DNA of 60,773 bases from Candidatus Blautia merdavium (lineage in GTDB: Bacteria; Bacillota; Clostridia; Lachnospirales; Lachnospiraceae): NCBI GenBank assembly GCA_019119975.1, contig DWVZ01000009.1, positions 1-60,773 on the forward strand. The letters run 5' to 3'. A program made the translations under genes and the position numbers. Shown piece by piece: positions 3,960 through 33,739 of this stretch. Position 1 is the first letter of the stretch. The number at the start of each line of letters is the position of its first letter. The notes under the pieces were generated by a model, which was not told the DNA's origin, ran no database searches, and saw only the letters and a list, made by a program, of their open reading frames with translations.

Positions 3960-5463
3960 GCTCTCCCTCATCTGCTATGATCTTTTTCTCCCGGATCAGG
4001 CTGCTGACCTTTTCGATCTCAAAGCCGAGGATCTGATCGTCCTGCTGGATCCTCTTGGTTGCTTCCCGGATCTTTTGGTAAGCATACAGGGTTCCTTTTC
4101 CCCGAACCAGCCCCTCCTGACATTCCGAAGCCTGTGCCGCATACATGGCTTCCATTGCCGTAAGCGTATACAGATTCTCCAGCATTTTCTCTGTCTTCAG
4201 CAGAAGATACGGTGTCATACATCCGTAATCTTCTGACTCATTTGCCGTTGGGAAATAATCCATGGATGCCGGGTTTGCCAGATGCCGGATCTCATTATAA
4301 ACTGCCGCCACTGTCTTCTGCATAGTTCCGTATCCGATCACCGACGGTTCCGGTCTTAAGAATCTGGGCAGACCGCTGAATTCTTCTTTGCACATTCTCA
4401 TGATCCGGTTCGCCGTCAGACCTGCCATATGGCACAGCAGGATATCCATCATTTCCAGCGCCGCCGCCAGACCTGTGACAATGAAGAAATCAGTGGAGAC
4501 AATTTCCCGTTCCTCTGCAAGGACTGCGGGACAGTCCTCCGAAGCATTCAGATAGCCATCTACCACACTTTCCAGATAATGGAGCCCGTCCCGGATACTT
4601 CCCATGACGCCGCAGGTACTTTTAAAGCTCAGCGCTCCGTAAAGGGTTTCATTTCCATTGTGATAGATGCTGCTGCCTTCCAGACACTGATTGACAAAGG
4701 CAAGACTTTCTCTGTGCCCTCTGTGACTGGTGATCTTCAGAGTCCTCTGGTCTATAAACACCGGATTGTAACTCTGGGCTTCCAGTCCCATGGCATAGAC
4801 GGTCTCTGACATTTCGATCAGATCCCTGATCTTCCCGCACAGCAGAGCTGCCTTTCCTACGGAGAACATGTTGCTGCTGACCATGGGAAGCCCGTCTTTT
4901 GGTCCCAGCGTCAGCTTTTTCAGCCCGGCTTTCTTAAGCGCCTCCTGGGCTTTCAGCTTCTGTCCCTGATATTCCACCTCCCCTTCTCCGATCATCGCCA
5001 GTCCCAGAAACGCCATGTTCCCCAGATCTGCCAACCCTACCGAGCCTCTTGCCGGAACCAGCGGGGTAATCTCTTGATTGAGAAATTCCTTCAGCAAAAG
5101 GATCATCTCCGTCTGGACGCCTGCGGTTCCTATAAGGAAGCTGTTGAGCCTGCACAGCATTGCCGCCCGGACCCATGCCTGGTCTGCCAGCGGCAGGATT
5201 GCCACTGAATGGGAGTACAGGATCTGTCGATTGAATTTCTCGAACTCCTCCTGTGTGATCCTCCGATCTTTATTGGCTCCCAGCCCTGTGTTCATACCAT
5301 AGATCTGCTTTTGGCTGTCTGTCAGGAACAGGACTGTTTTCCTAGCTTCCTGCGCCCGTATGAGAGCCTCCTCCTGGATTTCCACCCGGGCGCCGGCATA
5401 TACCACTGCCTCAAGCTCCTGTCTGGTCAGGGATTTTCCGTCTAAAATAACTGTTTCTTTCAA
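3937..5463 (-). CDS. HAL/PAL-superfamily lyase lacking the MIO Ala-Ser-Gly motif (divergent paralog)
   Basis: HAL-fold landmarks YGMNTGLG and PLVPARGSVG...IGEGE, but the MIO site reads GSVG-LAD-LGNM instead of GSVG-ASG-DLAP. Confidence 0.82.
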   Translation of the reverse strand: MKETVILDGKSLTRQELEAVVYAGARVEIQEEALIRAQEARKTVLFLTDSQKQIYGMNTGLGANKDRRITQEEFEKFNRQILYSHSVAILPLADQAWVRAAMLCRLNSFLIGTAGVQTEMILLLKEFLNQEITPLVPARGSVGLADLGNMAFLGLAMIGEGEVEYQGQKLKAQEALKKAGLKKLTLGPKDGLPMVSSNMFSVGKAALLCGKIRDLIEMSETVYAMGLEAQSYNPVFIDQRTLKITSHRGHRESLAFVNQCLEGSSIYHNGNETLYGALSFKSTCGVMGSIRDGLHYLESVVDGYLNASEDCPAVLAEEREIVSTDFFIVTGLAAALEMMDILLCHMAGLTANRIMRMCKEEFSGLPRFLRPEPSVIGYGTMQKTVAAVYNEIRHLANPASMDYFPTANESEDYGCMTPYLLLKTEKMLENLYTLTAMEAMYAAQASECQEGLVRGKGTLYAYQKIREATKRIQQDDQILGFEIEKVSSLIREKKIIADEGEHDKKGSI

Positions 5464-7178: not shown

Positions 7179-8126
7179 TTACAGCTTTCTGCTGAGTCCC
7201 TTGCTCAGGTCGATCCGGTTAAATTCGTTCAGATCGTAAGTTCCCTGTTTTCCCAGGATTCCCACCAGCATATAGTAGCCGTTCCTGGGATCCTGCGGAT
7301 AATCCTTGACCAGTGTGAAATCCTCGATCTTTCCCGTGCTGGAGATATGCATCCGGGGTCCTAAGCATTCCAGGATATAATCCCCGATCTGCACGTGTGT
7401 CTCATCATAATAGGACACCGGCAGGTCCTGCTGCACCGCTTCTTTCACCTTTTTCTCCAGCTCATAGAGGTCCACATCCGGCTTTTCCTCAAACTCCAGC
7501 ACAAAGCCGTGGCGCACATCCGAACGGGGACCGTCCTGGGCATAGCCCGATCCCATAAAATACACGCACAGGTCTTCCAGAGTATGCGCCATCTTTCTGT
7601 ACTTGACCGATTTGTGCACGATCCTGGCAATATTTTCAGGAAGAGGTCCGAACATATTGGGTCTGGTAATAATGATCTCCTCCCCGATGCCCACCAGCAG
7701 ATCCGCATTTCTGTTCAGGAAAGGATAGATCAGCTCGAAATGCTCCACGATCACCATCTTGCCGTATTTGGCAGCCTCCAGAATGGCTTCTGCCAGCACG
7801 TGCATCTGGGTAAACGCCGATTCAAAGCGGATATCCAGATGATAGGTATGAGGAGAAAACGGATCTGACAGATCCTCCTGCAAAAGGGGAAGGGGACGTA
7901 TATTGACACCCTCATCGTCATTGGTCAGGTCCATCCCCGGAAACATTCCCTTGATCAGAAGGCTCTTGCCTGCCCCCGCGTCCCCGATGATCCCTACGAT
8001 GTGATCAAAGGGGCTTAAATACATCTGACTTAACTGCATCCCCAGGTCTGCCATGCGGCGGTTTCCTCTGGGTGCAAAGTAAAAGCTGTACAGGTTGCTG
8101 TCCTGCATTTGTTTTGAATATGCCAT
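7179..8126 (-). CDS. P-loop NTPase-like protein of unknown function embedded in the glutamate mutase/mesaconase cluster
   Basis: Walker A-like GIIGDAGAGKSLLIKGMF; C-terminal DETHVQIGDYILECLGPRMHISSTGKI recalls an alanyl-tRNA synthetase additional domain. Confidence 0.65.
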   Translation of the reverse strand: MAYSKQMQDSNLYSFYFAPRGNRRMADLGMQLSQMYLSPFDHIVGIIGDAGAGKSLLIKGMFPGMDLTNDDEGVNIRPLPLLQEDLSDPFSPHTYHLDIRFESAFTQMHVLAEAILEAAKYGKMVIVEHFELIYPFLNRNADLLVGIGEEIIITRPNMFGPLPENIARIVHKSVKYRKMAHTLEDLCVYFMGSGYAQDGPRSDVRHGFVLEFEEKPDVDLYELEKKVKEAVQQDLPVSYYDETHVQIGDYILECLGPRMHISSTGKIEDFTLVKDYPQDPRNGYYMLVGILGKQGTYDLNEFNRIDLSKGLSRKL

Positions 8127-15582: not shown

Positions 15583-16215
15583 TTATTCGGTAACGCTCTT
15601 TGACACATTTGCCTGCGCCAGGATCTTCTGTTCGTAGGCAATGGCTTTCTTCTCCAGAACCGCAGCTTCTTCTGCGATCTCTTTTACAAATCCTTCATCC
15701 TTGATGGATTCCAGATTGATCTTTACATTAAAGAGTGCTCCAAGGACTGCGGTACGTGCCATCATAGTAGCTACCAGAGCGTCTGTCACAGCTGTCTTGT
15801 TTCCTTTTGTGACCATAGCCTCTGCATAGGGAAGCACTTCATAAGCTGCCTTTGCCACAGAAAGGGGAACTGCCACGGCTGCCTTTAAGCCATTCTGCAT
15901 CGCCTCTGTGCGGGCTGCCTTTTCTTCCTCTGTGTCCTTGGGCAGTGTCAGCGCCTGCATATACAGGTCAAAGGATTCGCTGTCCCGTTTGATATCATCC
16001 AGAAGCTGACGGCAGATCTTGTCCATAGGCTCCACTGCCGCTTTCATCTCTTCTTCCACTTCCGCATATTTCTTTTTGCCGATGGTAAGTCCTGCTACCA
16101 TCTCTGTAAGAGCAGCCGCCAGAGCGCCAGCGAGGGCGGAAATACTTCCGCCCCCTGGTACTGGTTCATTAGAGGCTGTCTGCATGGCGAATTGTTCGAT
16201 TGTCATATTTTTCAT
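15583..16215 (-). CDS. Formimino-THF cyclodeaminase (FchA/FTCD C-domain-like)
   Basis: MTIEQFAMQTASNEPVPGGGSISALAGALAAALTEMVAGLTIGKKKYAEVE. Confidence 0.9.
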   Translation of the reverse strand: MKNMTIEQFAMQTASNEPVPGGGSISALAGALAAALTEMVAGLTIGKKKYAEVEEEMKAAVEPMDKICRQLLDDIKRDSESFDLYMQALTLPKDTEEEKAARTEAMQNGLKAAVAVPLSVAKAAYEVLPYAEAMVTKGNKTAVTDALVATMMARTAVLGALFNVKINLESIKDEGFVKEIAEEAAVLEKKAIAYEQKILAQANVSKSVTE

Positions 16216-16243
16216 TGCCGTTACCTCTTTGAAATTATTATTT

Positions 16244-17134
16244 TTACAGTCTGGTCTCCAGAACCTGTTTGGAATCAAATCCTTCAAATCCCAGATAATA
16301 TTCTGCGCAGTCAACGATCGCCTGCAGCGGGATCAGACCTACGACTTCACTTCCAAGGACATTGACACCCCAGCGTCTTGCTTCCATGCGGACGGTTTCA
16401 AATACAGTGTATACGGATGTCTTGGTGTAGTCGGTCAGGTTCATGGATACCTGAGCGATGTTTCTGTCCTCCAGCATAACGCCCATAGCTTTGCAGTAAC
16501 GGAAGCCGCCTTTGATGTGACGGATCCGGTCAGCGATCTTCTGCGCGATCTCTACATTGGAAGTATCCAGGTTGATGTTGTATGCGATCAGAGGCATTCT
16601 GGCTCCGATGGCTGTCACACCGCCTGTAGGATGGATAGTGTCAGGACCAAAGTCCGGTTTCCACATTGGGTCTTTCATCTTTTCTGCCATTCCTTCAAAC
16701 TGTCCCTGGCGAACCTTTGCAAGGTTTTCTCTGTGAGGAGCAGTTGCGGATTTCTCATATAAGAAGAAAGGCTGTCCGAATTTTTCAGAAGCTTCTTTCG
16801 CAACTTCTTTTGCCAGAGCGTCTGCCTCTTCTACTGTGGCGTTGCGGATCGGAATGAAAGGAACTACGTCCACACAGCCCATGCGGGGATGCTGTCCCTG
16901 ATGTTTTGTCATATCGATCAGCTCGACTGCTTTTCCGATGGCTGCAACCATAGCGCCTTTTAATGGTTCCGGCTCACCGATCACAGTAACAACGCTTCTG
17001 TTGTGGTCTTCGTCAGAGGTGTAGTCCAGCAGCTTCACACCTTCGATGCCCCGGAAACAATCAACGATTTTCTCTACTTTTTCTTTGTCTCTGCCTTCGC
17101 TGAAATTAGGCACGCACTCAATAATTTTTTCCAT
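16244..17134 (-). CDS. ftcD: Glutamate formimidoyltransferase
   Basis: KIIECVPNFSEGRDKEKVEKIVD, LDYTSDEDHNRSVVTVIGEP, HPRMGCVDVVPFIP. Confidence 0.94.
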   Translation of the reverse strand: MEKIIECVPNFSEGRDKEKVEKIVDCFRGIEGVKLLDYTSDEDHNRSVVTVIGEPEPLKGAMVAAIGKAVELIDMTKHQGQHPRMGCVDVVPFIPIRNATVEEADALAKEVAKEASEKFGQPFFLYEKSATAPHRENLAKVRQGQFEGMAEKMKDPMWKPDFGPDTIHPTGGVTAIGARMPLIAYNINLDTSNVEIAQKIADRIRHIKGGFRYCKAMGVMLEDRNIAQVSMNLTDYTKTSVYTVFETVRMEARRWGVNVLGSEVVGLIPLQAIVDCAEYYLGFEGFDSKQVLETRL

Positions 17135-17188
17135 GGCTATCATTCTCCTTTATCTTGTATGTATAAAAATTGATTTCCGCGTTTTTGA

Positions 17189-18445
17189 CTATACCCATTC
17201 TTTGTGGTATACGGTTTCCCCATTCTTGATCACGGTCTCCACCAGGTTGATGCCTGTGTGGTAAGGCAGGTAATGAATGGAGGGGAATTTCAGGAACACA
17301 ATGTCCGCCTGTTTTCCCGGCTCCAGGCTTCCCACCCTGTCCGCTCTGTCCACTGCCGCCGCTCCGTTGATGGTGAGAGCTGTGATCACTTCCTCGATGG
17401 ACATATTCATATAAATGCATCCCAGAGCTACCAGAAGGGGGATGGAATTGGTAAAGCAGCTTCCCGGATTTAAGTCGGAAGCCAGCGCTACGGCACATCC
17501 CTCATCGATCATTTTCCGTCCCGGCGCGTATTCCTCTTTTAAGCAGAAGGCAGTTGCCGGAAGAAGGGTGCTGATGACGCCCGCTTCTTTCATCTGGCGG
17601 ATGCCCTCATCAGATGCCTTTAACAGATGGTCCGCAGATACTGCGCCCACCCGGGCAGAAAGCTCCGCGCCGCCCAGCTGATAGATTTCATCTGCATGGA
17701 TCTTCAGTTTGAATCCCATCTTCTTTGCCTCGGTCAGGTAGTATTCGGAATCCTCCACACTGAATACATTTTTCTCTGTGAAGATGTCCGCGAACTCAGC
17801 GAGATCTTCTTCCCTTACCTTGGGCATAACCTCTGTCAGCTGCTTTTCGATAAACTCCCGTTCTTTTCCCTTCCACTGGGGAAGTACGCTGTGGGGTCCC
17901 AGGAAGGTCCGGACTACATCTACCGGATGGATCTCATCTAACTTTTTCATGGCGCGAAGCTGCTTCAGCTCCGTCTCACAGTCCATGCCGTATCCGCTTT
18001 TTCCTTCCACTGTGGTAACGCCGAACTCCAGCATACGGTTCAGACGCTCCCGTCCTGCCTCAACCAGCTCCTCCTCTGTGGCGCTGCGGGTGGGATTGAC
18101 GGTGGCATTGATGCCGCCGCCTCTCTCCATGATGGACATATAGCTGTCCCCGTTTAATCTCCAGGAAAATTCGTCTGCCCGGTAGCCGCCGAATACAAAA
18201 TGGGTATGGGAATCCACAAATCCCGGGAGTACGGTCTTTCCGGAAGCATCCAGAACTTCGTATTCCTCTGCATTGACCTGTTTGTCCAATTCCTCTGTCG
18301 TTCCCACTGCCACGATCTTGTCGTCGTGGATGATCACTGCACCGTCTTTGATCAGCCCGATGTCTGCCATCTCTTTTCCGTGCTTCGGCGCTTTTCCTTT
18401 ACAGGTAACTAATTCGGACGCATGACGTATATATCTTTTTTTCAT
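17189..18445 (-). CDS. hutI: Imidazolonepropionase
   Basis: VLPGFVDSHTHFVFGGYRADEFSWRLNG, SGYGMDCETELKQLRAM, HADEIYQLGGAELSA. Confidence 0.95.
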   Translation of the reverse strand: MKKRYIRHASELVTCKGKAPKHGKEMADIGLIKDGAVIIHDDKIVAVGTTEELDKQVNAEEYEVLDASGKTVLPGFVDSHTHFVFGGYRADEFSWRLNGDSYMSIMERGGGINATVNPTRSATEEELVEAGRERLNRMLEFGVTTVEGKSGYGMDCETELKQLRAMKKLDEIHPVDVVRTFLGPHSVLPQWKGKEREFIEKQLTEVMPKVREEDLAEFADIFTEKNVFSVEDSEYYLTEAKKMGFKLKIHADEIYQLGGAELSARVGAVSADHLLKASDEGIRQMKEAGVISTLLPATAFCLKEEYAPGRKMIDEGCAVALASDLNPGSCFTNSIPLLVALGCIYMNMSIEEVITALTINGAAAVDRADRVGSLEPGKQADIVFLKFPSIHYLPYHTGINLVETVIKNGETVYHKEWV

Positions 18446-18470: not shown

Positions 18471-20516
18471 TTAGTGATGGGTGTGATGATGCTCTTCAGG
18501 AACTACATCCTTGCACACTCTGTCGATCAGTTCATCACTTGCCAGGTAAGGCATGGTGATGTAATCCTCTCCATTTCTGATCTGGTTGTATTCTGCCACG
18601 GTTTCGATGGAATGCTCGCATCTGCCCCAGCTTCTTCTGGATACACCGATCATAGTATCCCACGGAATCGCTGCCATTAAGATCTCATCCACTCTTTCGC
18701 TTCCGTCAAGAACCATACCGAAGCCGCCGTTGATGGATTTGCTGATACCTACGCCGCCGCCGTTGTGAAGGGCAACCAGGCTCATGCCTCTTGCTGCGTT
18801 TCCGGCATAGCAGTGAACTGCCATATCGGCTGTGATATTGGAACCGTCATAGATATTGGAGGTTTCTCTGTATGGAGAATCGGTTCCGCCTGTATCGTGG
18901 TGGTCACGTCCCAGCATAACCGGTCCGATTTCCCCGTTTCTTACCATTTCGTTGAATTTCAGGGCAATGTCTCTTCTTCCCAGAGCATCCTGGTACAGGA
19001 TACGGCACTGTGTGCCAACTACCAGTTTGTTCTTCTCTGCGTCGCGGATCCAGATGTAGTTATCTCTGTCCTGGCTCCTTCTGTTGGGATCGATGATCTC
19101 CATAGCCGCATGGTCTGTCTTTCTTAAGTCTTCCGGTTTACCGCTTAAGCAGCACCATCTGAATGGTCCGTATCCGTAGTCAAACAGTTCCGGTCCTAAA
19201 ATGTCTTCTACATAAGACGGGAAAATAAATCCTTCACTGGTGTCAACGCCGTTTTTCGCAATGTCTTTTGCGCCTGCGTCAAAGACAGCTTTCATAAATG
19301 CGTTGCCGTAATCGAAGAAGTAAGCGCCTCTTTCTACCAGGGTCTTGATCAGGTGATAATGTTTTACCAGAGTCTGGTCAACCAGTTCACAGAATTTATC
19401 CTTATCATTTGCCAGCATCTCGGTTCTTTCTTCAAAGGTCAGTCCCTGCGGGCAGTAGCCGCCGTCATAAGGTACGTGGCAGGAAGTCTGGTCAGACAGA
19501 AGTTCGATCTTGATGTTGTTGTCCACTGCGTACTCCAGAAGGTCTACAATGTTGCCGTGGTAAGCAATGGAGATGGTTTCTTTCTTATCCATGTATTCCT
19601 GTGCCACACGGAAAGCTTCTGCCGCGTCTTCGATCACCAGGCTTACCCAGCCCTGGCTGTGGCGTGTCTCAATCCTGGAAGCGTCTACTTCTGCTACGAT
19701 TCCTACGCCGCCTGCGATCTCAATAGCTTTCGGCTGTGCGCCGCTCATGCCGCCCAGACCGCTGGTTACGAATAAGTGTCCAGCCAGATCGCCGTCCTGA
19801 GGAACGCCTAAGAATTTACGTCCTGCATTTAAGATGGTATTGAAGGTACCATGTACGATACCCTGAGGTCCGATGTACATCCAGCCGCCGGCTGTCATCT
19901 GTCCGTAGGAAGATACGCCCATAGCAGTTGCTTTTGCCCAGTCTTCCGGATTGTCGAACATACCTACCATCAGTCCGTTTGTTACGATGACTCTTGGGCT
20001 GGATTCATGAGATTTGAACAGACCCATTGGATGTCCGCTCATCATGACCAGTGTGTGATGATGGGTGAGTTTTTCCAGATATTTTTTGATCAGCTGGTAC
20101 TGCATCCAGTTCTGGCATACCTGTCCTGTTTCTCCGTAGGTTACCAGTTCATAAGGATAAAGAGCAACTTCATGATCCAGATTGTTGTCGATCATAACCT
20201 GGAAGGCTTTTCCTTCGATGCATTCTCCCTTGTACTCGTCAATGGGTTTTCCGTAGATTCTTTCCTTTGGCATGAAGCGGTATCCGTAAATACGTCCTCT
20301 TGTAAGAAGCTCGTCCAAAAATTCCGGTGCCAGCTGCTCGTGAAGTTCTTCCGGTACATATCTCAAAGCGTTTGCCACAGCAAGCTTGATCTCTCTCTTG
20401 TTCAGTGTCAGCTCTCTTTTCGGCGCTCTTCTGACACCCTCTTTGAAGGTTGGATACTCTGGTAATACAGGATCTAACTTAATCACCATTGCTTTTCCGA
20501 TTTCTGCATTGTTCAT
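18471..20516 (-). CDS. hutU: Urocanate hydratase (681 aa, long anaerobe-type)
   Basis: HLFVTSGLGGMSGAQPKAIEIAGGVGIVAEVD, IAYHGNIVDLLEYAVD, HNGGGVGISKSINGGFGMVLDGS. Confidence 0.94.
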   Translation of the reverse strand: MNNAEIGKAMVIKLDPVLPEYPTFKEGVRRAPKRELTLNKREIKLAVANALRYVPEELHEQLAPEFLDELLTRGRIYGYRFMPKERIYGKPIDEYKGECIEGKAFQVMIDNNLDHEVALYPYELVTYGETGQVCQNWMQYQLIKKYLEKLTHHHTLVMMSGHPMGLFKSHESSPRVIVTNGLMVGMFDNPEDWAKATAMGVSSYGQMTAGGWMYIGPQGIVHGTFNTILNAGRKFLGVPQDGDLAGHLFVTSGLGGMSGAQPKAIEIAGGVGIVAEVDASRIETRHSQGWVSLVIEDAAEAFRVAQEYMDKKETISIAYHGNIVDLLEYAVDNNIKIELLSDQTSCHVPYDGGYCPQGLTFEERTEMLANDKDKFCELVDQTLVKHYHLIKTLVERGAYFFDYGNAFMKAVFDAGAKDIAKNGVDTSEGFIFPSYVEDILGPELFDYGYGPFRWCCLSGKPEDLRKTDHAAMEIIDPNRRSQDRDNYIWIRDAEKNKLVVGTQCRILYQDALGRRDIALKFNEMVRNGEIGPVMLGRDHHDTGGTDSPYRETSNIYDGSNITADMAVHCYAGNAARGMSLVALHNGGGVGISKSINGGFGMVLDGSERVDEILMAAIPWDTMIGVSRRSWGRCEHSIETVAEYNQIRNGEDYITMPYLASDELIDRVCKDVVPEEHHHTHH

Positions 20517-22897: not shown

Positions 22898-25867
22898 CTA
22901 CTTCGTATGCACTTCTTCTATTTCGTATGCGCCCGGTATTTTTTCCAGGCAGGCAGCGGCTTTTTCCCGGTATTGGCGGGGACTCTCTTTGAGCATATCG
23001 CAGAACATCCCGGGGAAACGCTCCTTTAATTCTGCCTGGTTCAGATACAGGAGTCCCAGCGTATAAGGAGATGCCAGCTGTCCGGCGCTTTCCCGGGCTT
23101 CCCACAAAAGTTCCCTCGCCTTTGTCCGGTTTCCTGCTTCTGCTTCCAGGATGCTTACATAGCCTTTATTCATAGATCTGCCCATCAAAGTAAAGGACTC
23201 GTCATAGATCTCCTCTGCCCGGTAAAATTCCTGCCGGCTTTTCTCAGGCTCCCCCAGCGCCAGCCAGGTTCTGGCAATATTGGAATAAACCACCGCATTG
23301 CAGGGACAGTGATTATTTTCACAGACCTCTACTGCCTGCCTGTATAAATCCAGCGCTTCCTCAAAGCGCTTCTGCTTGCGCATTGCCTCGCCCATATAGT
23401 TGTAGCAGGCGGAGATATTCAACGCATAGATCCTGGATTTCAGCGGCGCTCCCTCAAAGTAGGCAAGGGACTTTCGCAGATACTCCATGCTCTTTGCAAA
23501 GTCCCCTGTCATGGAATAATAAAGCCCGTATAACCGGCAGGTGACTGCATACTCCTCCTGATACGGTTCCTTTTGCGCTGTTTCCAGGGATTCTTCCAGA
23601 TACTCCTGCATCCGGTCCAGGTCCCATACATTCATCTGATGATGGATCAGAAGCCTTAAGCAGCGGATCTTGACCAAGGGATCCTGCCCGGCTTTTTCAT
23701 TGGTCAGCAGCGCTTTTTTCACACAGCTGATCCCCTCTTCATAATATCCCTGAGGAATGCAGTACTGGGCTTTGGTCTGCAGCAGCCGGATATACATACA
23801 GGAAAACTCCTGTCCGTCCCCTTCTCTCTGCTCCAGCTCCAGCAGCTCTTCCTCCATTTCCCTGCACTGCTGCAGAAGGAAGCTGTCCTGAAAGGCTTCT
23901 CTGGTACAGGAACTGGAAAAGACGGGATACAGTTCATAAAACTTTCTGACATATTCCTCCGCGGAAAGGATCCTGTATTCCAGCGCTTTTTTCCGGTTTC
24001 CGCAGAGGGTGTAATGATAGATCAGCCGTTCCTGCCTGCCGTATTCATACGAGGGCAGACTTTCAATGTACTGGGCAAGCTTCCTGTGAAAGACACTGTG
24101 CTTGGAGGGCGCCATCTGCTCATGGACAAATTTCTGCATACTTCCATGGCAGAAAAAAAGCCTCACCTCTCCTTTGACCTGTTTTTCGCAGAGAAATCCT
24201 TTTTCCTTCAGCTCTTCCACTGCCTCCACCAGCTCCAGGCTGTCCTTATTTAAGATCTGTTCAAGGGCATCCAGGTCTGCCCATGCCTGACAGGCGGAAA
24301 TCAGTTCCAGCACCTGACGGGGCAGCCTGGCAAGGCCATCCAGCTGTTCCTGTAAAAGCTCCTCAAACCGGGAAGGCTCCTCCTCTCTCAGTTCTCCATT
24401 TGCATACTCTTTCAGCAGCATTTCCAGGAAATAAGCATTTCCTCTGCTCTCCTCATAAATCCGGTCAATAAAAGCCGGATCTGCCGCCTTGTTTCCCAGA
24501 CTTTTCTCTGTAATCCTTCTGACCTGGTCTTTGCTGAAGGGCGATACAAAAATACGCTCCACAAACTTTTCCTTTACCAGCGGAGTCAAGGACCGTTTCA
24601 GCCTGTCATTCCAGCTGTCCGGACAGGTCATGAGGATCATCAGGTTTCTGTTCTGCGCCCGGATCAGACCGGACAGGAACTCCAGACTTATGGGATCCAT
24701 GTACTGAATATTGTCAAAGACCAGTATCATAGGCTTTTGCCGGCTCGCCTGGGCAAAAAAGCGGAGCAGGAGATTTCTGGTAGCCCGGTAGCTGTAAGAA
24801 ATGGTGTAATCTGCCGAAACCGCCTCCTGTCCTCCGCTTCTGAAAAACGGAAACAACCAGTCTGCTGCCTGCAGATACGGTTCCCCGATCTGGAGCTTTC
24901 CATGCTTTACCGCCTCGGCGATCTGCAGCATCACCACGCTCCAGGGCTGCAGGCTCATCTGCTCCTCTGTCTCCATGCAAAGCACCTGAAAGACCATGGT
25001 CCGTTCCCGGGGCACTCTGTCTGTCAGCCGCCTGGTCAGATAGGTTTTTCCTACGCCGCTTTCGCCTGTCAGCAGTATGCTTTTGGCTTTTCCTGTCAGG
25101 AACTGCCTGTATGCCTCGTCCAGCACCTGTCCTTCTCTCTCATGTCCTGTCTCCTCCTGCGCATTTTCAGACTCCATGCTCCACTCCCGGAGAAATCTCT
25201 GGTGCAACTGCCGGATTTCTTTTTGGGGCGCCACCTTCAGCTCCGCATCCAGAAGAGCTGCCAGCTGCTGGTACAGACGAATCCCTTTATAGTACAGCTT
25301 CCTCTCCCCGTAAAACCTCATCATTTCCTCATAGACCTGTTCATCCAGAGGTTCTTCCCGGATGTACTGCTCAAAAAGCTGTTCCGCCTGGCTTACGGAA
25401 AGCTCCCGGCTGCCGCAGAGCTTTTCTTCCAGAAGCCTGAGATACACGTCCCGGACTTCCCTTCTTTTCCAGGTGACCCAGTCTTCATAGGGTTCCGCGT
25501 TTTTCAGGTAAAAACCGCTGAGAAATTCCGCTTCATAAAGTGCGGTATCCTTTTCTTCCAGAAACCGCTCATAGTCTGTGGTAAGTTCCAGCTGGGGATT
25601 CAGGATCAGATTCTGCCTGTCCGGCGAAATGATGCAGTCCTCATGGAATAATTTCCTTATGGTGTACAGGGCATGGCGCAGGTTTTTCTTCGCCGTGGAT
25701 TCATCGCAGGTATCCCATAAAAGGGCGGCGATCCTGTCCCTGGTGGCGTGCTTCTCCACCGCCATATAATACAGGAGGGCTTCCGCCTTCCTGTAAGGAA
25801 AAATTACCAGACTGCCATCCAGATATGTTTTTGGCATCTGCAGTACGCAGACTTCGATTCGTGCCAC
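22898..25867 (-). CDS. Large BTAD/SARP-like regulator with AAA ATPase and TPR regions (989 aa)
   Basis: N-terminal winged-helix/BTAD-like region (LLWDTCDESTAKKNLRHALYTIRKLF), Walker A LTGESGVGKTYLTRRL, C-terminal TPR-like repeats. Confidence 0.82.
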   Translation of the reverse strand: MARIEVCVLQMPKTYLDGSLVIFPYRKAEALLYYMAVEKHATRDRIAALLWDTCDESTAKKNLRHALYTIRKLFHEDCIISPDRQNLILNPQLELTTDYERFLEEKDTALYEAEFLSGFYLKNAEPYEDWVTWKRREVRDVYLRLLEEKLCGSRELSVSQAEQLFEQYIREEPLDEQVYEEMMRFYGERKLYYKGIRLYQQLAALLDAELKVAPQKEIRQLHQRFLREWSMESENAQEETGHEREGQVLDEAYRQFLTGKAKSILLTGESGVGKTYLTRRLTDRVPRERTMVFQVLCMETEEQMSLQPWSVVMLQIAEAVKHGKLQIGEPYLQAADWLFPFFRSGGQEAVSADYTISYSYRATRNLLLRFFAQASRQKPMILVFDNIQYMDPISLEFLSGLIRAQNRNLMILMTCPDSWNDRLKRSLTPLVKEKFVERIFVSPFSKDQVRRITEKSLGNKAADPAFIDRIYEESRGNAYFLEMLLKEYANGELREEEPSRFEELLQEQLDGLARLPRQVLELISACQAWADLDALEQILNKDSLELVEAVEELKEKGFLCEKQVKGEVRLFFCHGSMQKFVHEQMAPSKHSVFHRKLAQYIESLPSYEYGRQERLIYHYTLCGNRKKALEYRILSAEEYVRKFYELYPVFSSSCTREAFQDSFLLQQCREMEEELLELEQREGDGQEFSCMYIRLLQTKAQYCIPQGYYEEGISCVKKALLTNEKAGQDPLVKIRCLRLLIHHQMNVWDLDRMQEYLEESLETAQKEPYQEEYAVTCRLYGLYYSMTGDFAKSMEYLRKSLAYFEGAPLKSRIYALNISACYNYMGEAMRKQKRFEEALDLYRQAVEVCENNHCPCNAVVYSNIARTWLALGEPEKSRQEFYRAEEIYDESFTLMGRSMNKGYVSILEAEAGNRTKARELLWEARESAGQLASPYTLGLLYLNQAELKERFPGMFCDMLKESPRQYREKAAACLEKIPGAYEIEEVHTK

Positions 25868-25888: not shown

Positions 25889-26467
25889 CTACAGGCAGAT
25901 CCGGCAAATGCCGATCCCTGCCTCCTCTTCGCTGCAGCCTGTGATGGTGATCTCTTCTTTCCAGTCCTTTGCCAGCGCAAGCTCTTCCCTGGCTGCCTCG
26001 GTTCCCGACAGACAGATCCTGCCTTCCTTTACATAGACTGCCAGCAGGTTTTCTCCCTGCCCGGGCGTCAGTCTCAGGGTCTCTCCCTGCCGGATACGGG
26101 CAGTCTCCATTTTCCCGTCTGCCCCGTTTTTTAACATCAGGTTAAAATCCACCACTTTTCCAAAGCTGACCGTAGGCACACCGCCGTCAAAGCAGTCTAC
26201 TTCATAAGGTTTCAGCTGCACCCGAGTTTCCTGTCCGTGAACCATCTCCAGGCTTCCCCCGAAAATGCTCAGATAACGCTTCACCCCCGGCAGAGGCGTG
26301 AAGTCAGAACGGTCTGTTTCCACGGTAGCGCTGCTGATGCGGCATTGAAAATTGCCTTCCCTGTACTGCGCGTCTTCCGGATAGATGTATAATTCTGTTG
26401 TGCTCCCTCCGGACCACTGGGAGGTTTTGAAATCATTTGCGTTTCTTACAATGATACTGACACTCAT
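25889..26467 (-). CDS. hutD: HutD-family protein
   Basis: FKTSQWSGGSTTELYIYPEDAQYREGNFQCRISSATVETDRSDFTPLPGVKRYLSIF matches HutD/Ves features. Confidence 0.85.
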   Translation of the reverse strand: MSVSIIVRNANDFKTSQWSGGSTTELYIYPEDAQYREGNFQCRISSATVETDRSDFTPLPGVKRYLSIFGGSLEMVHGQETRVQLKPYEVDCFDGGVPTVSFGKVVDFNLMLKNGADGKMETARIRQGETLRLTPGQGENLLAVYVKEGRICLSGTEAAREELALAKDWKEEITITGCSEEEAGIGICRICL

Positions 26468-26756
26468 TTCTTTTTTCCCCTTTCTTCTTTCCCGGCTCCG
26501 GGTCCTTTGAGAATTCACGCTTCCTGAACAGGCTCCTGAGCAGGACCATATATCCCCAGGAAATCGACAGTGCCGGAAGAGCAGACAGCAAAACTCCCTT
26601 TACCGGAGAGATTTCTGTAAACACTACCGGTCCGAAAAACATAACAAACACCACCACCATCATCAGGATCAGCGTAACCTTCTCCTTCATGGTATTGGGC
26701 GGTGTAAGAAAGATCTTCTGAAGATCCATTTCCAGTCTTTCCGGTTCTTTTTTCAT
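26433..26756 (-). CDS. Small two-TM protein of unknown function
   Basis: Hydrophobic VTLILMMVVVFVMFFGPVVF and GVLLSALPALSISWGYMVLL; RBS AAGGAGG; overlaps the hutD start. Confidence 0.65.
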   Translation of the reverse strand: MKKEPERLEMDLQKIFLTPPNTMKEKVTLILMMVVVFVMFFGPVVFTEISPVKGVLLSALPALSISWGYMVLLRSLFRKREFSKDPEPGKKKGEKRNECQYHCKKRK

Positions 26757-26811
26757 GCTTTTCCTCCTTATCAAACCGTATTTTTTTCATCATACTACAC
26801 ATCTGGACCAG

Positions 26812-26971: not shown

Positions 26972-28576
26972 TTAAGCCTTTGCTTCCTCTAACACTTCTG
27001 GTTCCACATCCATTACATCGTCCACATCTTCAATGATCTTGTCTAAGAAGAACACTTTAAAGGTGGAAGCCAGCTGCAGGATAAAGATCGGAAGCACGCA
27101 GAAGCCGCCTACGCCTGAAAGATATTTTACGCCTTCCACGCCCTGCTGTCCGCCTCCGAAGATGACCATGACAACAGCGATGATGCCGATGGCAAGTCCC
27201 CATACTACCTTCTGCCAGTTGGCTGGCTCTTCATCATAGCTGGAGCCTTCTGTACAGATCTGGGAAATGGTGGTCGCCATGGTATCTGCCGTGGTGGAGA
27301 ACGCCGCCATCATGGTGATCATAACCAGCGGAATGATCACGAAGCTGATGGGCACCTGCTTCAGCAGCTCCCAAAGTCCGGATACTGCAATGCCGTTGGT
27401 AATGGCGCCTACGATATCTGATTTGCCGATGTCCTGCCAGTTCAGCGCGGTTCCGCTCCATACAGCAAACCATACCACACCGAATACAGATGGCATGATC
27501 CAGTTTACGATCATAAACTGGCGGATGGTGCGTCCATAGGAGATCATAGCAAAGAAGATCGCCATCAGAGGCGCGTAAGCAATCCAGCACGCCCAGTCAA
27601 ACATGGTCCACCAGGTTACCAGCGCTTCGCCTCCCACAATGTATGGATCCAGTCCCCAGCTCCAGAAATGATCGAACCAGTAGCCAAGCCCTACATTCAT
27701 CATGTTCAGGATATAAACCGTCGGTCCCGCGATCAGCAGGAAGATCAGCAGGATATAAAAGATCTTGGAAGTTCCGTTTGCCAGCCATTTGATCCCCTTG
27801 TCCAGACCAGCCACAGACGCAAGAATAAAGGTTGCCGTGATGATCAGGAATAAGATGATCCATACCACAGGTCCCTGCTTGATCCCGTAAGCTGCCTCCA
27901 GACCGGTTCCCACCAAGGCAAGTCCCATGCCCAGGTTGCTGGAAAGTCCCAGTGCCAGCGCTACGATGGAGATCACGTCAATGATACTCCTCCACACTCC
28001 GTGCTTCACTCCCTGTCCGAAAAGCGGGGTCAGGGAAGCTGCTACAGATAATTCTTCTTTCTTGTTGAAATAGATGTACGCCATGGCGCATCCTACGATA
28101 GAATACATGGCATACGGCACGAATGTCCAGTTATAGAAGACACGTCCCATGCCGAACTGCGCTGCCTCTGCCGTCATGGCAGCGATCCCGGTCTGCTCCA
28201 GCTCTCCGTAAATATTGCCGTAATAGATCATAACTTCATTGGCTCCGTATACGATACAGCCGGTAGCGATGCCGCCGGTCAGCGTCATAGCAAACCAGGA
28301 ACCAAAGGAATGCTTCGATTTGGCATTTCTGCCTCCGAAGCGGACGTTGCCCAGCTTGGAAAACGTCAGGATCGCAACGATCACCAGACAAAAGACTGCT
28401 ACCAGCTGGTAAAGCCATCCAAAGCTCTTTAAGGACCAGCTGAAGATTGCGGAGCAGCTGGCTGTCAGCCACTCATTTCTCAGGATTCCCAGAAGCGCGC
28501 CGCCGCCGATGATGATAAACGCCGGGATAAATACGCCCCACCGGATTCCTTTTGGTTTTTTGTTTTCTCCACTCAT
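26972..28576 (-). CDS. BCCT-family (betaine/carnitine/choline) transporter
   Basis: WWTMFDWACWIAYAPLMAIFFAMISYGRTIRQF matches the BCCT Trp-rich signature; start MSGENKKPKG with AAAGGAGGG upstream. Confidence 0.9.
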   Translation of the reverse strand: MSGENKKPKGIRWGVFIPAFIIIGGGALLGILRNEWLTASCSAIFSWSLKSFGWLYQLVAVFCLVIVAILTFSKLGNVRFGGRNAKSKHSFGSWFAMTLTGGIATGCIVYGANEVMIYYGNIYGELEQTGIAAMTAEAAQFGMGRVFYNWTFVPYAMYSIVGCAMAYIYFNKKEELSVAASLTPLFGQGVKHGVWRSIIDVISIVALALGLSSNLGMGLALVGTGLEAAYGIKQGPVVWIILFLIITATFILASVAGLDKGIKWLANGTSKIFYILLIFLLIAGPTVYILNMMNVGLGYWFDHFWSWGLDPYIVGGEALVTWWTMFDWACWIAYAPLMAIFFAMISYGRTIRQFMIVNWIMPSVFGVVWFAVWSGTALNWQDIGKSDIVGAITNGIAVSGLWELLKQVPISFVIIPLVMITMMAAFSTTADTMATTISQICTEGSSYDEEPANWQKVVWGLAIGIIAVVMVIFGGGQQGVEGVKYLSGVGGFCVLPIFILQLASTFKVFFLDKIIEDVDDVMDVEPEVLEEAKA

Positions 28577-28659
28577 TCGTAAACCCTCCTTTGTATGCTG
28601 TGGATCCCCTGATGGGTCCTTTTTTATCTGAAATGCCTTTCCGGCATTCAAGATCACAG

Positions 28660-30153
28660 TCAGACTTCCAGGCTTTTCAGGAAGTCATAGGTTTTCTGGA
28701 TATCTTCTGACATATTTCTGTCATTGTCCAGATAGGGAACCACATTTCTGTAAGCGTCAAAAAAGTCTCTGGTCCCCTCGCCCAGCACAGGATGGTCTCT
28801 CAGATCCACTGCCTGCGCGGCGTGCATCAGCTCAATAGCTGCCATATAGTACAGATTATCCACGATCTTCCTCATATTCATGGCAGCCATGGCAGAATTG
28901 CTTGCTGTATCTTCGATATGCCCTGCCATGCTGAGGAAATCCATGGAACAGGGATTGGCGTACATACGGTTCTCCGCATCCAGCACCGATACGGTTTTCT
29001 GTATGGTGCCGTAGGCGATCACAGACCCTTCCTGAGGTGTCAGGAACCTGTTCAGTTTGGAGAATCCCGGATCGCCGATCCTTAAAATCTGCTGTGCGAT
29101 CATCTTGGACATATGTCCTAAGCCGATGGCAGTCATCTCCACTGCCAGCACCCAGGACAGAGGTTCAAAGTTGGGGCTTCCGCACATACGGTCCTCCTGG
29201 GGGAGCAGACAGGGATTGTCATCTGTGGCATTGAGCTCGATGGTCAGCTGCTTTTTCAGGTATTCCAGTGCATCCATCACAGCTCCCGTAATGGCGCTCT
29301 GGCACCGGAAACTTAAGGGATCCTGAAGCGCTCTGCCTTCCCAGGGGCGTTCCAGATAGCTGCCTTTTAAAAGCCTTCTGCACTCTCTGGCAGATTCTGC
29401 CTGACCCGCATAGCCTCTGACTGCATTGACGCTTTCATCCATAGGATCCAGCACGCCGTTCAACCCCTCCAGAGCCAGGCAGAAGACCCTCCGGTAACGC
29501 TCTATGAATTCTTCTACCTCGATGATGCCTACCGCGGCAAAGGCGGCTCCCTGGGCATTGGAAGAAGCGATGCCCAGTCCGTCTTTCGGTCCCATGCGCA
29601 GAGGTTCCAGCCCTGCCTTAGAAAGCGCCGACAGACTGTCCATGCGCTCCTCGCCGTACCAGGCTTCTCCCTCTCCGATGGCAGTCAGCCCGATAGCCGT
29701 CAAAGTGGCAATGTCCGCCTCCCCTACGGAACCTCGGGACTTCATCACCGGGGTGATACCCCTGTTTAAAAATTCCGCATAATACTGGGCGATCTCTTTT
29801 GCCACTCCTGTATTTCCGCACAGGAATCCGTTCAAGCGGATCGCCATGGTAGCCCGCACCTCCGGAATGGTGCACTCCGGTCCCACACCGATCATGTGGC
29901 TGCGCAGAAGATTTTTATTGTAGGCATCGTAGCGGTCCGCGTATACTACCTTATCCTTATTCCAGCCTACGCCTGTATTGAGTCCGTAGACTGCCACACC
30001 CCGCTTATCCAGTTCAAAGATCAGGTCTCTTGCAGCCTGCAGCCGCTCCATTGCTTCGGGGGCAATCTCCACTTTTACATTTTCATAAGCAATCTCTCTG
30101 ACCTGCGCAATGGTCAGGTTCTTGCCTGTAAGAACGATTGTTTTCTCCGCCAT
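28660..30153 (-). CDS. HAL/PAL-superfamily lyase lacking the MIO Ala-Ser-Gly motif
   Basis: YGLNTGVGWNKD, LQDPLSFRCQSAITG, ELNATDDNPCLL are HAL-like, but the MIO site reads GSVG-EAD-IATL; 13 nt downstream of the Mo-subunit gene. Confidence 0.85.
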   Translation of the reverse strand: MAEKTIVLTGKNLTIAQVREIAYENVKVEIAPEAMERLQAARDLIFELDKRGVAVYGLNTGVGWNKDKVVYADRYDAYNKNLLRSHMIGVGPECTIPEVRATMAIRLNGFLCGNTGVAKEIAQYYAEFLNRGITPVMKSRGSVGEADIATLTAIGLTAIGEGEAWYGEERMDSLSALSKAGLEPLRMGPKDGLGIASSNAQGAAFAAVGIIEVEEFIERYRRVFCLALEGLNGVLDPMDESVNAVRGYAGQAESARECRRLLKGSYLERPWEGRALQDPLSFRCQSAITGAVMDALEYLKKQLTIELNATDDNPCLLPQEDRMCGSPNFEPLSWVLAVEMTAIGLGHMSKMIAQQILRIGDPGFSKLNRFLTPQEGSVIAYGTIQKTVSVLDAENRMYANPCSMDFLSMAGHIEDTASNSAMAAMNMRKIVDNLYYMAAIELMHAAQAVDLRDHPVLGEGTRDFFDAYRNVVPYLDNDRNMSEDIQKTYDFLKSLEV

Positions 30154-30165
30154 TTCGGCACCTCC

Positions 30166-32421
30166 TTACCTTCCCCTTGTATGTTCCTTGTTTTCCAGCC
30201 AGGCAACCACCTTTTCTGGCGTGATGGGATAGTGGGCGAACCGGCTTCCGATGGCAAAGTTAATGGCGTTTGCCACTGCCGGCGCCGGCGCCACTGCCAC
30301 CACCTCACCCAGGCTTTTTGCCCCATAGGGTCCGTCTGAATGATGGTTTTCAATGAACACAGACCGGACTTTCGGCATATCCGGCGCATTAATCATGTGA
30401 TATTTGGAAAAGTTTCTGGATCTCACATCTCCTTTTCCGTTATAGGCGATTTCCTCGAACAATGCCTGTCCAAGGCTCATCTGAGCTCCGCCCTCCACCT
30501 GTCCTTCAGAAAGCGTATAATTCATGCACTGTCCTACATCATGGACGCACACCAGATCCAGCACCTGGGTCTGACCGGTATAAAGATCTACTTTCACCTC
30601 TGCAAAAGCGGCGCAGTATACGCCCGGATTGCTGTCAGGTTCATACTCCACCTCTGCGTGGAGGTACCTGGAAAACTTTTTCTCATATTGCTTTGAGATT
30701 TCTCCGTAAGTATGGACTTCTTCTCCGTCTGCTCCCGGATATCTCATGGTTCCGTCCTCTGCCCGGATCCTGTCTTTCTCCCAACCGTATAAGGATACAC
30801 AGGCTTTTTTTATTTTCTCCAGCAGAGCTTCTCCTGCCTCCTGGACTGCCCTTCCGCACACAAAGGTCACACGGCTTGCCTGGGTCCCTGCCGAATCGTA
30901 GGGACTTTGGAAGGTGTCCGCCTCATAGACCCGGATGCGGTACACATCCATATGCAGGGCTTCTGCCCCGATCTGCTGCATAGTCATCACCGTTCCGCAG
31001 CCCTGGTCATGGACGGCGATGCGGAATTCCGCGGTTCCGTCCGGATGAAGCTGCGCATGGACATTGGTAAAATCCGGATAGCCGCCCTTATAACCATTTC
31101 CGTGTGTGGCGCATGCCATGCCTACTCCGTATGCATACCGGCGGGTATTCTTTTCCCGGACATGAGCTCTTCTTTCTTCCCAGCCGAATTCTTCCATGCC
31201 TTTTAGGATGCATTCCCGGATACGGGCATCTCCCAGATTGGTTCCTCCTGTAGGGTCGTCATCCCCCGGCTGCACCACATTTTTCAGGCGCAGCTGGCAG
31301 GGATCCATGCCCAGCCGGTCTGCGATCTGATCCAGGTTCACCTCAGTCACCGCATGTGCCTGGGGAGAACCATACCCCCGGCAGGAGCCTCCCGGCGTGG
31401 TATTGGTATAATAAGTCCTTGCCCTTACAGTCTGGTTTTCCACTCGGTAAAGGCGGAACAGCTTCTTGCTGAACGCCATGGCAATGGCTGAGGCATTGGT
31501 GTAATAAGCGCCCCCGTCAAAATCACAGTCTATGTACCGTCCCACGATCTTCCCGTCTTTTGTGACAGCGGTCTTTACTGTCATATCGCCGGGATTTCTC
31601 CTTCTGGTCGCCATGATGTCTGCCGGGCGGTCCATATACAGCATTACCGGTCTTTTCAGGGTCCATGCGGCAAAAGCACAGGCGCTTTCCACCACCGTAA
31701 GCCCTTTTCCTCCGAAAGACCCTCCCATAACAGCTTTGATGACCCGGACCTTCGTATAGGGAAGATCCAAAAGACTGCACACATGATTGCGGATCATAAA
31801 TACCGTCTGGCAGGGCGTCCAGATGACCAGATTCCCCGTCTCATCAATGGCAGAAAGGGATATGTGGGGCTCAATGGGCGCATGGTGGATCGCCTGGGTA
31901 CTTCCCGCAGTTTCCTCCACGATCAGCTGGTCCAGAGGAAGGCTGTCAAAATCCCCGCATTTGCTTTCCTTTTCAAATGCCAGATTTTCTCTGCTTTTTC
32001 TGGCAGCCTCGATTCCAATGACCGGCTCTTCCTCCCGGTAGGTGATCTCTACCAGGGAGGCGGCTTCCTCCACGGCTTCCTTCGTCTCTCCTACCACCAG
32101 CGCCAGATGATCGCCCACATACCTGGCTTTTTCACTTAAAATATACATATCCTCCAAAGCGCCGATCCCGGCGGTCCAGTTGTGGGGATTGTATTTTTTC
32201 TTGGGCACGTCTTTATGGGTATAGACTGCATGGATCCCGGGAACCTGCTCTGCTTTTTCTGTGCTGACGGAAATTTCTGCCAGCGCCTTTTCGCTGAGCA
32301 CCAGCTTTGCATACAGCATTCCTTCCAGCTTGCGGTCGCAGGTATACTGGGTCTTTCCCCGTGCTTTATCATAGACGTCTTCCCGGATCAGGCGTTTTCC
32401 CACATAGTTCAGTTCTTTCAT
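30166..32421 (-). CDS. Xanthine dehydrogenase-family molybdenum-binding subunit
   Basis: RLIREDVYDKARGKTQYTCD, MGGSFGGKG, TPGGSCRGYGSPQ, GPYGAKSLGEVVAVAPAPAVANAI. Confidence 0.93.
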   Translation of the reverse strand: MKELNYVGKRLIREDVYDKARGKTQYTCDRKLEGMLYAKLVLSEKALAEISVSTEKAEQVPGIHAVYTHKDVPKKKYNPHNWTAGIGALEDMYILSEKARYVGDHLALVVGETKEAVEEAASLVEITYREEEPVIGIEAARKSRENLAFEKESKCGDFDSLPLDQLIVEETAGSTQAIHHAPIEPHISLSAIDETGNLVIWTPCQTVFMIRNHVCSLLDLPYTKVRVIKAVMGGSFGGKGLTVVESACAFAAWTLKRPVMLYMDRPADIMATRRRNPGDMTVKTAVTKDGKIVGRYIDCDFDGGAYYTNASAIAMAFSKKLFRLYRVENQTVRARTYYTNTTPGGSCRGYGSPQAHAVTEVNLDQIADRLGMDPCQLRLKNVVQPGDDDPTGGTNLGDARIRECILKGMEEFGWEERRAHVREKNTRRYAYGVGMACATHGNGYKGGYPDFTNVHAQLHPDGTAEFRIAVHDQGCGTVMTMQQIGAEALHMDVYRIRVYEADTFQSPYDSAGTQASRVTFVCGRAVQEAGEALLEKIKKACVSLYGWEKDRIRAEDGTMRYPGADGEEVHTYGEISKQYEKKFSRYLHAEVEYEPDSNPGVYCAAFAEVKVDLYTGQTQVLDLVCVHDVGQCMNYTLSEGQVEGGAQMSLGQALFEEIAYNGKGDVRSRNFSKYHMINAPDMPKVRSVFIENHHSDGPYGAKSLGEVVAVAPAPAVANAINFAIGSRFAHYPITPEKVVAWLENKEHTRGR

Positions 32422-33278
32422 CTCTCCACCTCCCCGGCGTCTGCTCTCAGGTCTTCCAGAATATCGTCCATCAGTCCCAATGCCGCTGATTTTTTATAGT
32501 GCTTGGATGCCCTGGTGGGAATATTGGCTTCGATCTGTCCATAGACCGCTTCTTTCAGTTTCTCCATGCAGATGTCTGCAGGAGATTCCCCTTCCAGAGC
32601 TTCCTCGATCAGCGGCGCTCTCGATGCCTTGGCGCCTACGGCTCCCAGGTACACGGTTGCCTGCTGCATTTTCCCATCTATAAGCTCTGTTTTGACGCAT
32701 CCATTGATCTTGGAAATGGTCACTGCCTTCCTGGAACCTACTTTTGCGAAACCGGACCGGGCAGTTCCCTTTTTTACCACAAACTGCAGCAGCATTTCCC
32801 TGTCCTTCAGCAGATTCTTTTCCAGACCTTCAATGAGATCGTCCACCGGCGCGATCCTTTTCGATCCTTTTTCATTGTATACAACTGCCTCGGCGCCGTA
32901 AGCCAGCAGCACCGGGGTAGTGTCCGAGCTCTGGGATGCATTTGCCACGTTTCCTCCTACTGTGGCACGGTTGCGGATCTGGGTGGATCCCACCATGGAC
33001 GCCGCCTTTGCCAGAGCAGGGATATACTTCCTGATCACCGGGCTTTTCTCCAGCTGGGTCATGGTCACTGCCGCTCCGATCAGGATCTCATTCTGGGTTT
33101 CTTCAATCTTTTTTAACTCTTCCAGATGGGTCAGGTCAATAAGGGAATAATGGAATTTCTTCCTGGCTCTTAAATGGATCACCAGATCTGTACCGCCTGC
33201 GCACAGATAAGTATTCTCATCCTTTTCCTTTAATGCGTCTGCCAGCTCCTCCAGATTTCTGGGCATAAAAAAATTCAC
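32418..33278 (-). CDS. Xanthine dehydrogenase-family FAD-binding subunit
   Basis: FFMPRNLEELADALKEKDENTYLCAGGTDLVIHLRARK, RNRATVGGNVANASQSSDTTPVLLA; GTG start preceded by GGGGGAGG. Confidence 0.92.
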   Translation of the reverse strand: MNFFMPRNLEELADALKEKDENTYLCAGGTDLVIHLRARKKFHYSLIDLTHLEELKKIEETQNEILIGAAVTMTQLEKSPVIRKYIPALAKAASMVGSTQIRNRATVGGNVANASQSSDTTPVLLAYGAEAVVYNEKGSKRIAPVDDLIEGLEKNLLKDREMLLQFVVKKGTARSGFAKVGSRKAVTISKINGCVKTELIDGKMQQATVYLGAVGAKASRAPLIEEALEGESPADICMEKLKEAVYGQIEANIPTRASKHYKKSAALGLMDDILEDLRADAGEVER

Positions 33279-33739
33279 TGTACCTCCCCCTTTACTGCAC
33301 ATTCCACTGCTTGGATAATTTTTTCATATCCCGTACAGCGGCATAAATTTCCTTCGATGGCTCTCTTGATCTGTTCCCTGTCAGGGTTTGGATTTTCTAA
33401 AAGAAGCGCCCTGCAGGAAAGGATCATCCCCGGTGTACAGAACCCGCACTGGATCGCCCCGTTCTGGATAAAAGCTTTCTGAAGGATATCAAGTTCTCCG
33501 TTCTTTTCCAGTCCCTCTATGGTAAGGATCTCACGGTCCATCACCTGTCCTGCGTAGATGGTGCAGCTGGTGACAGCCTGACCATCCAGGATTACCGTAC
33601 AGGCTCCGCACTCTCCTTCACTGCAGCCCTCCTTAACCCCGGTAAGTCCCAGGTCGTCCCGCAGGAAATCCAGCAGTCTTTTTCCCGGATCAGTCTCTTT
33701 TTCTATCCTTTCTCCGTTCACTGTACATGATAAAAGCAT
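33275..33739 (-). CDS. 2Fe-2S subunit of xanthine dehydrogenase-family enzyme
   Basis: CSEGECGACTV, CGFCTPGM, CRCTGY cysteine motifs. Confidence 0.95.
   Translation of the reverse strand: MLLSCTVNGERIEKETDPGKRLLDFLRDDLGLTGVKEGCSEGECGACTVILDGQAVTSCTIYAGQVMDREILTIEGLEKNGELDILQKAFIQNGAIQCGFCTPGMILSCRALLLENPNPDREQIKRAIEGNLCRCTGYEKIIQAVECAVKGEVQ

Follow-up and report, generated by a model that had tools for sequence, protein, structure and literature searches.

Ergothionase is the enzyme that removes trimethylamine from the dietary antioxidant ergothioneine, and thiourocanate hydratase acts on its product. The family has been described before: ergothionases lacking MIO and a pathway for ergothioneine in the gut have already been published. 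PMC13405746 states that MIO is absent from ergothionase. That paper cites Zhou et al. 2025 for the degradation of ergothioneine by Clostridium symbiosum, and Feng et al. 2025 for a thiourocanate desulfhydrase that frees H2S in anaerobic gut bacteria. The same 2026 paper, using BLAST with a Burkholderia query, described ergothionase as limited to a small number of genera and not common among gut bacteria (PMC13405746).

The lyase gene HAL1 and its MIO site

The gene considered here, HAL1, lies in the window (the whole stretch of DNA analysed, 60,773 nucleotides) as follows:

28660..30153, minus strand: intact ORF of 497 aa for HAL1, a MIO-less lyase and predicted ergothionase (ergothioneine trimethylamine-lyase)
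29713..29721, minus strand: codons for Glu-Ala-Asp, which the alignment places where MIO lyases have Ala-Ser-Gly

In the alignment, the MIO-forming Ala-Ser-Gly is absent from HAL1 (GSVGEAD), and the loop reads GSVGEADIATL, compared with GSVGASGDLAPL of the MIO lyases. The codons GAG (29719-29721), GCG (29716-29718) and GAC (29713-29715) correspond to residues 145-147, so that the Glu-Ala-Asp replacement claimed in the earlier note has exact coordinates in an intact reading frame. The note had also described the loop as one residue shorter than the canonical one, with which the single gap against canonical HutH at this site (GEA-D against GASGD) agrees, and had reported a replaced NGT segment beside preserved landmarks; the alignment gives SSNA at the NGT position, with QDPLSFRCQ and NATDDNP retained. 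In addition, the position of HutH Tyr280 is occupied by Leu. Since the same substitution at the MIO site is conserved in dozens of HAL1 relatives in the alignment, it is not a chance change. The expectation that automatic annotation would call the gene hutH did not hold: HAL1 scores 345.4 bits with TIGR01225 (cut-off 539) and 355.5 bits with PRK09367 (cut-off 524), and in the Pfam scan only the general family PF00221 fits. Because these scores fall well under the hutH/HAL cut-offs, the NCBI pipeline should not give it that name.

In the PDB search, the best solved relative of HAL1 is the Treponema denticola ergothionase 6s7j (49% identity, E 3.4e-154), which is matched over the full length with 517 bits, against 241 bits for the best HAL. 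An AlphaFold model, for which 40 natural homologues served as input, reaches a mean pLDDT of 91.7, and its top PDB matches are the 6s7j chains (TM 0.96, rmsd 1.4); P. putida HAL gives TM 0.93 and rmsd 2.1. The two TM values differ little, since the fold is common to the whole set of proteins. Sequence discriminates ergothionase from HAL better than fold does. All 56 of the 56 columns that are invariant among 40 HAL1 relatives are also present in 6s7j, including Trp64 (GVGWNKD), Lys386 (GTIQK) and Glu414 (IED). In the tree, which was made by a quick method with SH-aLRT as its only support, HAL1 and 6s7j stand in one clade of 35 (SH-aLRT 100) and canonical HutH stands outside; a placement inside MIO-containing HutH, which the earlier note had named as the outcome that would speak against it, was checked in this way, and HAL1 groups with 6s7j instead.

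An ordinary histidine ammonia-lyase that works despite its altered loop would share the fold and would suit the HutU, HutI and HutD in the pathway neighbourhood. It is nevertheless extremely improbable and was rejected: the Ala-Ser-Gly and the tyrosine are missing, the scores lie under the hutH cut-offs, HAL1 clusters with 6s7j and not with HutH, and a separate canonical HutH with Ala-Ser-Gly, above the hutH cut-off, is encoded elsewhere in the same genome (locus L007). HAL1 is thus predicted to be an ergothionase. Sequence, fold, phylogeny and gene context agree with the note's proposal of a lyase that needs no MIO and acts on a trimethylated histidine, ergothioneine for instance. The note had overlooked the XDH-type Mo enzyme upstream, the second MIO-less HAL of the window and the fact that enzymes of this kind were already in the literature. 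As the best explanation of the whole, we put the probability that the gene is an ergothionase at roughly 0.87. Sequence, fold, clade, conserved residues and gene linkage were observed directly, and from them we infer the substrate, the roles of the residues, the reactions of the importer and the Mo enzyme, and co-transcription.

HAL1 is present in 6 of 20 Blautia genomes. Its named relatives are all from this genus: an uncultured Blautia (94% identity), Candidatus Blautia avicola (85%) and B. parvula (82%). The distribution of HAL1 is patchy, because no orthologue outside the genus was found among 299 genomes drawn evenly over the family, where, the window's own genome apart, only canonical HutH-like matches of about 30% identity appeared; the scan of viral contigs likewise gave no HAL1 relative.

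Operon context and the predicted fate of thiourocanate

HAL1 belongs to a gene series in the order 2Fe-2S, FAD and Mo subunits, lyase, BCCT, small hydrophobic protein, HutD-like protein and SARP-type regulator. These genes and those of the predicted downstream route are:

33275..33739, minus strand: 2Fe-2S subunit of a Mo-hydroxylase, first operon gene (NCBIfam XdhC-type, below cut-off)
32418..33302, minus strand: FAD-binding subunit of the Mo-hydroxylase (NCBIfam XdhB, below cut-off)
30166..32421, minus strand: large Mo-binding subunit of the XDH family and candidate for a thiourocanate desulfhydrase (matches to NCBIfam XDH models, below cut-off)
26972..28657, minus strand: BCCT-family transporter, candidate ergothioneine importer (E 1e-85 to 1e-90 with the BCCT models, under their curated cut-offs)
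26433..26774, minus strand: small hydrophobic protein, about 113 aa (in tblastn, it is conserved behind the BCCT gene both in Blautia and in C. symbiosum)
25889..26518, minus strand: HutD-like protein (Pfam HutD PF05962, E 4e-25)
22898..25867, minus strand: SARP/BTAD + AAA + TPR regulator (Pfam BTAD, AAA_16, TPR)
18471..20516, minus strand: urocanate hydratase HutU of 681 aa, predicted to act downstream (TIGR01228, 436.6 bits, cut-off 375)
15583..18445, minus strand: HutI, FTCD-like and FchA-like genes of the histidine-to-glutamate route (named from the translated sequence alone)

As far as the BCCT transporter, the operon genes overlap or are separated by short gaps (the 2Fe-2S gene overlaps the following gene by 28 bases and the FAD gene by 4 bases). 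The partner genes fit the XDH family in having 2Fe-2S, FAD and Mo subunits together with a catalytic-type Glu, which is retained in the Mo subunit in the motif KSLGE (KSxGE type). That the next gene is a BCCT transporter, as had been noted earlier, is borne out by the model matches, although they lie under the curated cut-offs. It is probably an importer of ergothioneine; in Corynebacterium glutamicum, deletion of betP marginally raised ergothioneine production (PMC12689799), which lends weak support to a BCCT carrier in this role. The small hydrophobic protein, for which no Pfam match was found, is possibly a partner of the BCCT transporter, and it also adjoins HAL3/BCCT clusters (L098, L150). 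Homologues of the SARP-type regulator lie beside many HAL1 loci, and the regulator likely controls the cassette. Further downstream, the window HutU is of the ordinary type, far under the thiourocanate hydratase cut-off; HutI and FchA homologues also occur near some HAL1 relatives, and a methylaspartate route for glutamate is present in the window (genes named from sequence). Between its methylaspartate ammonia-lyase-like and fumarase/mesaconase-like genes, there is a 315-aa ORF (7179-8126, minus strand) with a P-loop-like GDAGAGKS, and no Pfam match was found for it.

On this basis, the following course may be proposed. The BCCT carrier would import ergothioneine, and the lyase would abstract the beta proton and expel trimethylamine to give thiourocanate. 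The MIO electrophile would be unneeded because trimethylamine is a good enough leaving group. Instead, we propose a pocket lined with the conserved residues Trp64, Glu145/Asp147, Lys386 and Glu414, of which Trp64 is the putative contact of the trimethylammonium group. The three-subunit Mo-hydroxylase of the same operon would then remove sulphur as H2S, converting thiourocanate to urocanate, which the downstream hut and glutamate-fermentation genes would consume.

The neighbourhoods of other ergothionase-type genes were taken as evidence on the substrate. One genome per species was scanned for two short peptides, which gave 261 relatives, and 80 loci were kept; the GVGWNKD signature occurs in 70 of them. 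Among these 70, an XDH-type Mo enzyme alone is found at 46, a HutU-like protein of the thiourocanate hydratase kind alone at 14, both at none and neither at 10. The exclusion has a Fisher p of 3e-6 with Pseudochrobactrum collapsed, the loci being phylogenetically non-independent and some of them short. In anaerobes the gene stands with the three-subunit XDH-type enzyme and often with BCCT (near 39 of the 46 XDH-linked relatives); in aerobes it stands with thiourocanate hydratase, and 7 of the 7 HutU-like neighbours tested exceed the curated cut-off for that enzyme. Within Blautia, thiourocanate hydratase above cut-off was found in none of the 20 genomes, and a Mo subunit orthologue (at least 71% identity) is present in 6/6 genomes with HAL1 and 0/14 without it, although all 20 have at least one other XDH-type protein of at most 35% identity. 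Read most simply, this would mean that in anaerobes the Mo enzyme stands in for thiourocanate hydratase, the removal of sulphur feeding urocanate to the hut route. It would thus probably desulfurise thiourocanate to urocanate, and this candidate is likely to be the published thiourocanate desulfhydrase.

The same associations bear on the substrate of HAL1, which is most likely ergothioneine. The lyase might instead work by the same mechanism mainly on hercynine or another aromatic betaine, with ergothioneine as a secondary substrate; the coexistence of several ergothionase-type paralogues in other Blautia and in C. symbiosum suggests such a split of substrates, and the Thr59-Gly60 region of HAL1 reads YGLNTG where 6s7j has YGLNRG. 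However, many members of the clade have Thr (23 rows) or Val (16 rows) at this YGLN-x-G position, compared with 41 rows that have Arg, and the Val form (Pseudochrobactrum) occurs near thiourocanate hydratase. Moreover, a lyase acting on hercynine would make urocanate in one step, and nothing would be left for the linked Mo enzyme to do. This alternative is unlikely. The clade is linked to a means of handling thiourocanate, namely the XDH cassette (in its presumed role) or, in aerobic relatives, the hydratase; since neither is needed for the breakdown of hercynine, ergothioneine is favoured over it. The substrate might also be a modified ergothioneine, either oxidised or substituted (sulfonate, S-methyl, selenoneine), and not ergothioneine itself, given that a bacterial ergothioneine sulfonate pathway has been published (cited as reference 43 in PMC13405746) and that NCBIfam includes an S-methyl thiourocanate hydratase model. 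But the neighbours of the clade exceed the cut-off of thiourocanate hydratase and miss the S-methyl type, which leaves this reading with a very slight chance.

Further HAL-family genes

The genome has five HAL-family genes, four without the Ala-Ser-Gly triad and one with it. The MIO-less ones other than HAL1 are:

3937-5463, minus strand: HAL2, second MIO-less HAL-family gene, GSVGLAD at the MIO site
L006:4968-6548 and L006:6614-8128 (contig C82, same genome): tandem of HAL3 and HAL4, GSVGYL at the MIO loop

HAL2 is highly divergent: it retains GTMQK and lacks Trp64 and QDPLSFR (YGALSFK instead), and searches of 19 other Blautia and of about 390 class-level genomes gave no orthologue. Its neighbours are an M20 amidohydrolase, an SSS symporter and a LysR-like regulator. 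The HAL3/HAL4 tandem adjoins a BCCT transporter and a sigma-54-type activator, and in other anaerobes HAL3-type genes occur near those for ergothionase. For HAL4, the PDB search gave a HAL as the closest solved protein. Both proteins may be misnamed, because they lie only slightly above the NCBI PRK09367 histidine ammonia-lyase cut-off. One guess is that HAL3/HAL4 could be a hercynine lyase. More broadly, it is tentatively speculated that MIO-free HAL-fold lyases serve different modified histidines, with HAL1 for ergothioneine, HAL3/HAL4 for hercynine or an aromatic betaine and the orphan HAL2 for another substrate; MIO would then have been lost more than once, and these genes would mark undescribed trimethylamine-releasing enzymes. 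HAL2, HAL3 and HAL4 are more novel leads than HAL1.

Related genes were seen elsewhere. Other Blautia have a second ergothionase-type paralogue at 44-50% identity. In L035, L036 and L038 (49-50%), it is arranged divergently with another XDH-type enzyme, whose genes follow the order S-L-M, and this paralogue was not found in the genome of the window. Near the ergothionase cassettes of a Clostridium sp. and Acidaminobacter (L075:8809-11301 and L083:13242-15673), there are paired short and very divergent HAL-like proteins with about 27% identity to HutH, one of each pair having GSTGLSD at the MIO site.

Significance and comparison with known systems

By these results, gut Blautia and many other anaerobes are predicted to have ergothionase together with a probable importer and genes for the handling of sulphur. 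The 70 GVGWNKD loci include Blautia, C. symbiosum, Peptoniphilus and Acidaminococcus, and the occurrence of the signature in so many loci, gut anaerobes among them, suggests that GVGWNKD is a better marker of ergothionase and that the count in PMC13405746 is too low. Moreover, since the Mo enzyme and thiourocanate hydratase alternate strictly, desulfurisation in anaerobes can be put directly to the test.

Canonical HutH (P. putida 1b8f, and the copy in the same genome) has the PF00221 fold in common with HAL1 at about 30% identity, but it has the MIO Ala-Ser-Gly, Tyr280 and NGT, all three of which HAL1 lacks. The T. denticola ergothionase (6s7j, 6s7q; Maurer et al. 2019) is much closer, with 49% identity and the same fold (TM 0.96), and both proteins have a MIO-less GE(A/G)D loop, GVGWNKD, QDPLSFR, GTIQK and IED; they differ in YGLNRG and SSIGEGD of the Treponema enzyme, compared with YGLNTG and GSVGEAD of HAL1. 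The homologue in C. symbiosum ATCC 14940 (L046) has 71% identity and lies in the same cassette of XDH, HAL, BCCT, small protein and regulator, except that its regulator gene is on the opposite strand. Finally, as PMC13405746 cites it, the gut pathway of Feng et al. 2025 resembles the chain predicted here, in which anaerobic gut bacteria would convert ergothioneine to thiourocanate and then release H2S.
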